A stretch of 64,000 nt of DNA from Vulcanimicrobiota bacterium. Its GTDB lineage: Bacteria > Vulcanimicrobiota > Vulcanimicrobiia > Vulcanimicrobiales > Vulcanimicrobiaceae. The notes under the pieces were generated by a model that was given only the letters and a program-made list of their open reading frames with translations, did no database searches and was not told the origin of the DNA. Position 1 is the stretch's first letter. Each line of letters begins with the position of its first letter. Below, piece by piece: positions 46,726 to 55,188 of this stretch. Location of the stretch: contig PMSI01000003.1 in assembly GCA_003168375.1 (NCBI GenBank), forward strand, positions 744,001-808,000, in the 5' to 3' direction. Position numbers and translations under genes: made by a program.

Positions 46726-47139
46726 ATGAAAAACGAAGCCAACATTCATGGAATCGTCGTCGGTGGACAGCCCTCGACGGACGAGCTCACGTCGGGCCGC
46801 TTCAAGACGATCATCAACATTCGCGGCGCCGCTGAGGAGGGCAACGACACGGGCGCGGTACTAGCGGGCACCGATCTCTCGTATACGTCCGTGCCCTGGT
46901 CGATCGACACGGTGACGAAGGAAGACATCGAGCGCATTCGCGAGGCGGTAACAGCCGGGCAAGGCACCGTCCTGATCCATTGAGCGGGAGGGACGCGCGC
47001 CGCGGTCGCGGCGGGAATTGTCACCGCTGAGCAAGCGGGAACGGGCGCGGCCGGCGCGCTGCAGGCCGTGGCAGACGCGGGCTTCGACATCGCCGGGACA
47101 CCCTACGCGGATTTCATTCACCGCTATTTCGCAAGCTGA
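46726..47139 (+). CDS. DUF442-type phosphatase-like protein with in-frame TGA at the catalytic cysteine position
   Basis: The reading frame gives MKNEANIHGIVVGGQPS, then FKTIINIRGAAEEGND, a pattern of the DUF442 (beta-lactamase hydrolase-like) phosphatase family, up to TVLIH at residue 85. Codon 86 is TGA; the same frame then continues AGGTRAAVAAGIVTAEQAG and ends TPYADFIHRYFAS-stop. In this family the P-loop is HCxxGxR. Here TGA occupies exactly the Cys codon: H-[TGA]-AGGTR. So either the gene encodes selenocysteine, or it is a nonsense mutant (TGC to TGA) with little other decay. A hairpin with a GGTC loop lies 15-30 nt after the TGA. Total length 137 residues if read through, normal for the family. 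No selenocysteine machinery genes are in this window. Confidence 0.6.
46998..47013 (+). promoter_or_regulatory. Hairpin downstream of the in-frame TGA, SECIS-like
   Basis: CGCCGC - GGTC - GCGGCG: 6-bp stem with GGTC loop at positions 24-27 counting from the T of TGA. Bacterial SECIS elements lie within about 40 nt of the UGA and have conserved G bases in the apical loop. In E. coli fdhF, recalled from memory, GGUC falls at about 22-25. Short hairpins are common in such GC-rich sequence, so this is suggestive only. Confidence 0.35.
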
Positions 47140-47164: not shown

Positions 47165-47479
47165 TCAGACTCCAGTCTCTGAGGTACGACTTGGCGATTC
47201 TTTCGCTGCGCGCGAGCACAGGACGACGAGCGCGCGCGACCGCTTCAGCGCCTCGTCGACGGCCTCTCCGAGGTCAGCGGAGCTCGAAAACTCATCGCGA
47301 TCTCGGAAGATCGGAAAAAGGCGCTTCGGCAGAGGGCTCTTGGGATCTGTCGACAGGCGCGCGGGCAGACGATCGACTTCAATCGCTCTCGCCAACGCGC
47401 GTGCGGCAGCGGCGTTTTCGTGACTGTAGCAGATGAAAGCCCAGTAGCGAAACGGCTGCTGTTCTACCGCACCGCTCAT
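47165..47479 (-). pseudogene. Truncated TIR-domain protein
   Basis: A 104-residue frame starting with ATG 47479 that begins like a TIR domain: FRYWAFICYSHENAAAARALARAIE, then LFPIFRDRDEFSSSADLGEAVDEAL and ALVVLCSRAAKES. After that the family would continue with a SxWVNxE segment; here the frame runs into SRTSETGV and stops, 26 bp from the stop of the convergent DUF442 gene. TIR domains of this form usually lead TPR or other effector domains, which are absent, so the gene is 3'-truncated. It may be a remnant of a defence or signalling gene. Confidence 0.7.
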
Positions 47480-54818: not shown

Positions 54819-55188
54819 GCGCGGAGGGCGCTGGGCCGTCGCGGCGCGCAAGCGTCGAGGAACGTCCGGGCTCCATTGGGCAGGGTGCAGGATAACGTCC
54901 TGTCGGGGCGACTCGAAGGAAAGTGCCACAGAAACAAACCGCCGGTGCTTGCACCGGCAAGGGTGAAATCGTGCGGTAAGAGCGCACGGCGTTCCGCGGA
55001 GACGCGGACGCGGGTAAACCCCACCTGGAGCAAGACTGCTCGTTCCCTGGCTCCGGTCAGGGCCGCCGGCCCGGCGGAAACGAGCTCACGTCGCAACGAG
55101 GCCGGTCGTGAGGCCGACCCCAGAGAGATGACGGCCACGGCCTCTTCGGAGGCTTTGACAGAATCCGGCGTACAGGCGTCCTCCGCGC
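54819..55188 (+). ncRNA. rnpB: RNase P RNA, bacterial class A
   Basis: The catalytic RNA that removes 5' leaders from tRNA precursors. Signature pieces: GAGGAACGTCCGGGCTCC, CAGGGTGCAGGATAACGTC, AAGGAAAGTGCCACAGAAA, GTAAACCCCACCTGGAGCAA, and the 3' end ACAGAATCCGGCGTACAGG. The first and last 13 nt (GCGCGGAGGGCGC and GCGTCCTCCGCGC) pair as helix P1, which defines the ends. Length about 370 nt, normal for type A. It is preceded by a good promoter. Confidence 0.95.

Follow-up and report, generated by a model that had tools for sequence, protein, structure and literature searches.

The question raised by this locus is whether a TGA that interrupts a DUF442 reading frame at the position of the catalytic Cys acts as a stop or as a selenocysteine (Sec) codon and, if the latter, what the enzyme might do. 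The gene lies in a stretch of 64,000 nucleotides, which as a whole is called the window here, and its source genome (4.43 Mb, 7 contigs) is 97% complete. Our data indicate, with a probability of about 95% judged from the sequence comparisons, that it is a genuine selenoprotein gene in which UGA codon 86 is decoded as Sec.

Reading frame and selenocysteine machinery

Translation of 46726-47136 through the TGA gave 137 residues with Sec as residue 86, in the context TVLIH-U-AGGTRAAV, followed by a terminal TGA at 47137-47139. The gene opens with ATG and its product with MKNEANIHG, and both the start codon and the MKNE N-terminus are conserved. Pfam model PF04273 (BLH_phosphatase/DUF442) matched the window protein with 28.9-29.1 bits, above its gathering cut-off of 26.1 bits, and matched 21 of 21 orthologues with E <= 0.001. 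This bears out the initial annotation, which had described a DUF442 protein of 137 residues read through one TGA. It had also placed the TGA at the Cys of the P-loop, which proved right, but its motif HCxxGxR was imprecise in length, being C(X)4R and not the classical C(X)5R. The sulfur-transferase model TIGR01244 likewise matched all 21 orthologues. The window protein scored 37.8 bits (E 1.8e-9) against it, under the curated cut-off of 85.85 bits, and by the cut-off rule would be classed from its sequence as a relative and not a member. It also stayed under the cut-off of the Blh model NF040641 (DUF442 joined to an ETHE1 dioxygenase), with 38.9 bits against 625. No second domain was found beside DUF442 in the 137 residues. 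The protein contains no Cys, and Sec would be its sole chalcogen nucleophile. The features of the locus and of the Sec machinery are listed in Table 1.

Table 1. Location of the Sec gene, its elements and the Sec-related genes of the source genome (positions in the window, or on contig C4 where so prefixed)
Feature	Position	Strand	Score	Remark
DUF442 (BLH_phosphatase, PTP-fold) Sec gene	46726..47139	+		137 aa, TGA codon 86 read as Sec
In-frame TGA, Sec codon	46981..46983	+		takes the place of the catalytic Cys in the U(X)4R loop
Bacterial SECIS hairpin	46998..47013	+		6-bp stem 46998-47003 / 47008-47013, loop GGTC 47004-47007
tRNA-Sec	C4:548423-548512			anticodon TCA
selB	C4:578778-580634		300 bits	
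selA	C4:580654-581991		492 bits	
Fdh-like molybdopterin oxidoreductase gene	C4:1351185-1354103			in-frame TGA, context RV-U-HGPT
selD	C4:1443085-1444011		377 bits	

The search for sel genes proposed with the initial annotation found selA, selB, selC (tRNA-Sec) and selD in the source genome, with selB directly downstream of selA. SelD itself has an in-frame TGA (context SSCAG-U-ASK), followed by a GGTC-tipped hairpin, GGCGCAGGTCCTGCGCC, 32 nt past the TGA. Decoding of UGA as Sec is thus available in the source cell, because the sel machinery is present together with Sec-type selD and Fdh-like genes. In the Fdh-like gene, matches to the Fdh-alpha model were scattered over several separate pieces.

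Conservation of the TGA and the downstream hairpin

When 103 genomes of the source's order were searched in six frames, 21 of them gave 22 matches: 16 intact genes, each with a single in-frame TGA, five stop-free genes and a second copy that had decayed. Relative to the window protein, identity ranged from 77% down to about 40%. The codon aligned with residue 86 was TGA (16/21) or TGC/TGT (5/21) in the intact orthologues and never any other, and the 16 TGA genes, which belong to genomes of two families, all kept the downstream frame intact. Chance could not plausibly preserve one TGA across such divergence. Within the window's own clade, pairwise dN/dS was 0.13-0.46 upstream and 0.16-0.61 downstream of the TGA. 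The region past the TGA is therefore evidently translated, and it is under purifying selection, in agreement with the earlier view that the downstream half is coding up to the final TGA.

Of the 103 genomes, 86 have selA, among them 16/16 with the TGA form and 4/5 with the Cys form, and the 17 genomes lacking selA contained no TGA form and a single Cys form (G031). Since a Cys orthologue occurs in four selA-bearing genomes, Sec is not indispensable. In the tree, Sec/Cys changes numbered at least two, and the Cys gene L022 was nested within a well-supported clade of Sec genes (96/100). A chromosomal neighbourhood that includes LepA and an M23 peptidase is common to Sec and Cys orthologues (L066 compared with L069, L071 and L072). 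In the order-wide count, selA was absent from all eight genomes of genus g36, which suggests that the Sec trait was lost in that lineage.

The hairpin downstream of the TGA was present in 16/16 TGA genes, whose alignment past the TGA is free of gaps. RNAalifold predicted from these genes one hairpin of 6 bp, exactly at the stem positions of Table 1. Paired cells amounted to 97.9%, and 4/6 pairs were altered on both sides (GC/CG/AU, GC/AU, CG/UA and CG/UA). The covariation score was 0.444 against 0.227 after shuffling, none of 500 shuffles reached either this score or the percentage paired, and the signal was gone when the partner was shifted by 1-3 columns. The loop GGTC was identical in 16/16 Sec genes and occurred in 0/5 Cys genes, in which the hairpin was degraded and showed no clear excess of covariation (n=5). 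L022 retained a 5-bp stem with the loop GACC instead of GGTC, as would be expected of a gene that no longer needs a SECIS. The loop codons GCG GTC (Ala, Val) had zero synonymous variation among the 16 Sec genes, whereas all other fourfold-degenerate codons with a fixed amino acid were variable. The 16-nt hairpin of the window has a folding energy of -10.8 kcal/mol, and the weaker 16-mers of L030 and L035 have -5.6 and -6.1 kcal/mol. Its 6-bp stem and its GGUC loop, which starts 20 nt after the TGA, agree with the published constraints on bacterial SECIS elements (PMC13188914). The initial annotation had given this hairpin at 46998-47013 with its loop at 24-27 nt, which is exact when counted from the T of the TGA, and had called it SECIS-like; the covariation that it proposed to look for in relatives supports this.

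Its own alternative was a nonsense mutation of TGC to TGA, and a sequencing error would have the same consequence, a truncated protein of 85 residues or a pseudogene. Decay does occur in this gene family, as the second copy in G099 (L039/L040) has a TGA, a TAG and a lost 3' part. However, 16 genomes share this TGA and keep the frame beyond it intact, the region past it is under purifying selection, and the covarying SECIS is absent from the Cys genes, which leaves this explanation with hardly any probability. The proposed alignment of homologues showed that relatives keep TGA (16) or Cys (5), with no decay unique to the window. Base-calling error was ruled out because this TGA recurs in independent assemblies. 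General stop readthrough or an alternative code (for example Trp), for which no support was found, is just as improbable because Cys is the sole alternative residue at the site, the gene itself terminates at a TGA and the genome has a complete sel system. On the strength of conservation, covariation and the sel machinery, we rejected nonsense mutation, assembly error and code change.

The decayed copy in G099, which belongs to the same genus, lies at L039 1501-1892 (G099:C164:9462) / L040 (CALEOJ010000164.1). This copy stands nearer to the window's gene, with 86% amino acid identity over residues 1-85; it has TAG at residue 15 and a TGA at the Sec site, beyond which the sequence is unrelated.

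The search took in 149 genomes of a single phylum, with pattern scans beyond it, and within this range the Sec form was found in the source's order only. The 46 Eremiobacterota genomes outside the order contained only distant homologues, none with an internal stop, and a single pattern scan of genome contigs beyond the phylum matched only a same-genus copy. In viral contigs the Sec form was not found, and the sole matches in plasmids were distant DUF442 proteins of alphaproteobacterial type, aligned over about residues 10-92.

Fold, active-site loop and possible function

The AlphaFold2 model, with Cys in place of Sec, had a pLDDT of 96.7, and from this model the window protein is predicted to have the PTP/DSP fold. 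Comparison of the model with solved structures (Foldseek, VIA-align) placed it closest to the DUF442 proteins 3gxg/3gxh (Z 17.6/17.1), and many DSP phosphatases were matched, among them NMA1982 (2f46, Z 15.0). The putative phosphatases NMA1982 and 3gxg, a DUF442 protein of Shewanella, share the overall fold and the P-loop with it, although structural alignments gave only about 16-18% identity to the solved DUF442 structures, NMA1982 included. Structural matches of this kind, like E-values, give no indication of the substrate. The active loop U-A-G-G-T-R is U(X)4R, which has a residue fewer than the PTP signature C(X)5R and equals the loop of NMA1982 in length. Asp71 of NMA1982 aligns with Thr62 of the window protein, which is Thr in 20/21 and Ser in 1/21 orthologues, and the general acid/base Asp of a WPD-like loop was accordingly absent from the aligned position in all 21. 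Asp61, which directly precedes Thr62, is present in L028 and in the majority of the window's subclade.

These results bear on the earlier suggestion of a Sec-dependent, phosphatase-like enzyme, of which the Sec and the PTP-like fold are supported and the phosphatase only in part. The label is doubtful on sequence grounds: the loop has the U(X)4R form of DUF442 sulfurtransferases, and in 21/21 orthologues Thr or Ser takes the place of NMA1982's catalytic Asp. Moreover, the benefit of Sec lies chiefly in redox or chalcogen chemistry. The case for a true phosphatase, acting on proteins or small molecules with Sec as the phosphate-accepting nucleophile, lies in the fold, with DUF442 and DSP structures as the best matches, and in NMA1982, which has the C(X)4R loop CRTGTR and hydrolyses DiFMUP (PMC10716126). 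The kcat of that reaction is 4.4e-5 per s, compared with 4.89 per s for sulfur transfer from thiosulfate by the DUF442 domain of Cupriavidus (C. pinatubonensis) SQR, which has the same loop CRTGTR (PMC8533005), and we regard a phosphatase as unlikely. It is rather improbable that this is the first natural selenoenzyme family of the PTP/DSP fold in the specific sense of a Sec-dependent phosphatase, with Sec as P-loop nucleophile for phosphoryl transfer; if it were, its activity would be tuned by selenium and redox state.

If the Sec call is right, we infer, at little better than even odds, that the protein is a selenium-dependent sulfane-sulfur transferase or reductase. This function is favoured by the C(X)4R loop found in sulfur-transferring DUF442 proteins, by the missing catalytic Asp and by the TIGR01244 matches. 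The DUF442 domain of Blh is a proven sulfur transferase (PMC5823870). The window protein resembles the domains of Blh and Cupriavidus SQR in fold, PF04273 membership, the single nucleophile and the six-residue C/U(X)4R loop, which in the C. pinatubonensis domain has the GTR end in common as well. Unlike them it has Sec for Cys and stands alone, without fusion to ETHE1 or SQR.

For the gene to be decoded in this way, SelB with Sec-tRNA(Sec) would bind the GGUC hairpin 20 nt downstream of the UGA, and codon 86 would be decoded to give the 137-residue PTP-fold protein with Sec as nucleophile of the anion-binding U(X)4R loop. In a sulfane-sulfur enzyme, the Sec selenolate might then attack a substrate (thiosulfate, a persulfide or a polysulfide) that Arg91 and the amides of the loop hold in place, forming an Se-S(H) intermediate from which sulfur would be handed to an external thiol such as thioredoxin. 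This would be a one-chalcogen enzyme, with Sec and no partner Cys. Since the protein has no Cys, an intramolecular selenenylsulfide is impossible, and an external thiol would therefore have to complete the cycle.

A different possibility is that the protein handles selenium as a perselenide carrier or reductase supplying SelD, and is not a general sulfane-sulfur enzyme. In one genus (G001-G003), a single contig has both selA and the Sec gene, the latter about 4.2 kb downstream of selA and past selB, from which it is separated by two opposite-strand genes, annotated in G001 as an ABC ATPase and RNase D. A rhodanese, moreover, can carry perselenide (Ogasawara et al., as cited in PMC10298544). 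The close linkage to selA is suggestive, but in the source genome the gene is not linked to sel genes, the Sec form occurs in only 16 of the 86 selA-bearing genomes of the order, and Cys forms occur, once without selA (G031). The chance of a role in selenium supply is consequently slim. Another redox role takes what remains after sulfane-sulfur chemistry, phosphatase activity and selenium handling.

Relation to known selenoproteins and genomic context

The inventory of May 2026 lists 119 prokaryotic selenoprotein families and subfamilies, including arsenate reductases and the PF00581 rhodaneses with their UxxG forms, and no DUF442, PF04273 or PTP-fold entry was recognised among them, in line with the initial annotation, which did not count it among the known selenoprotein families. 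Nor was the DUF442 Sec protein among the new families of deep-Sep, it matched none of the selenoprotein models in NCBIfam release 20 (June 2026), and none of the open-access papers searched joins DUF442 with selenoprotein and selenocysteine. As far as we found in the open-access literature, a selenium-containing DUF442 family has not been reported previously. The rhodanese-like selenoproteins (PF00581, forms 2 and 4) also have Sec in a UxxG loop and belong to a sulfur-transfer family (PMC13188914), but the window protein has the DUF442 PTP/DSP fold of PF04273, and the likeness is probably convergent. It shares the genome and sel machinery with the Sec-containing SelD and FdhA, and the hairpin of selD is also GGTC-tipped; these two, unlike the DUF442 Sec protein, are well-known selenoprotein families.

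The family would add the PTP/DSP fold to the natural selenoproteome, outside the dominant thioredoxin-like folds, and comes from a phylum, Eremiobacterota, of which few members are in culture. Because Sec and Cys orthologues with the same active site occur naturally, the gain from selenium over sulfur in a P-loop enzyme is directly testable. Annotation of these genomes is prone to take such genes for truncated genes or pseudogenes.

An operon-based assignment of function was dropped, as the neighbours vary between genomes and no partner was identified. In the window and in L067 the gene has an S9 peptidase and tRNA-Ala as neighbours, and in L065 a response regulator overlaps its start. Adjoining the selenoprotein gene in the window is a short ORF on the minus strand (47165-47479) that matches part of a TIR domain (PF13676, 31.5 bits) and is apparently a gene cut short. 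The source genome also has a distant Cys-type DUF442 paralogue with the loop HCSTGDR (L084 2130-2696, G000:C2), and an RNase P class A RNA (238 bits) was found in the window at 54823-55188 on the plus strand.
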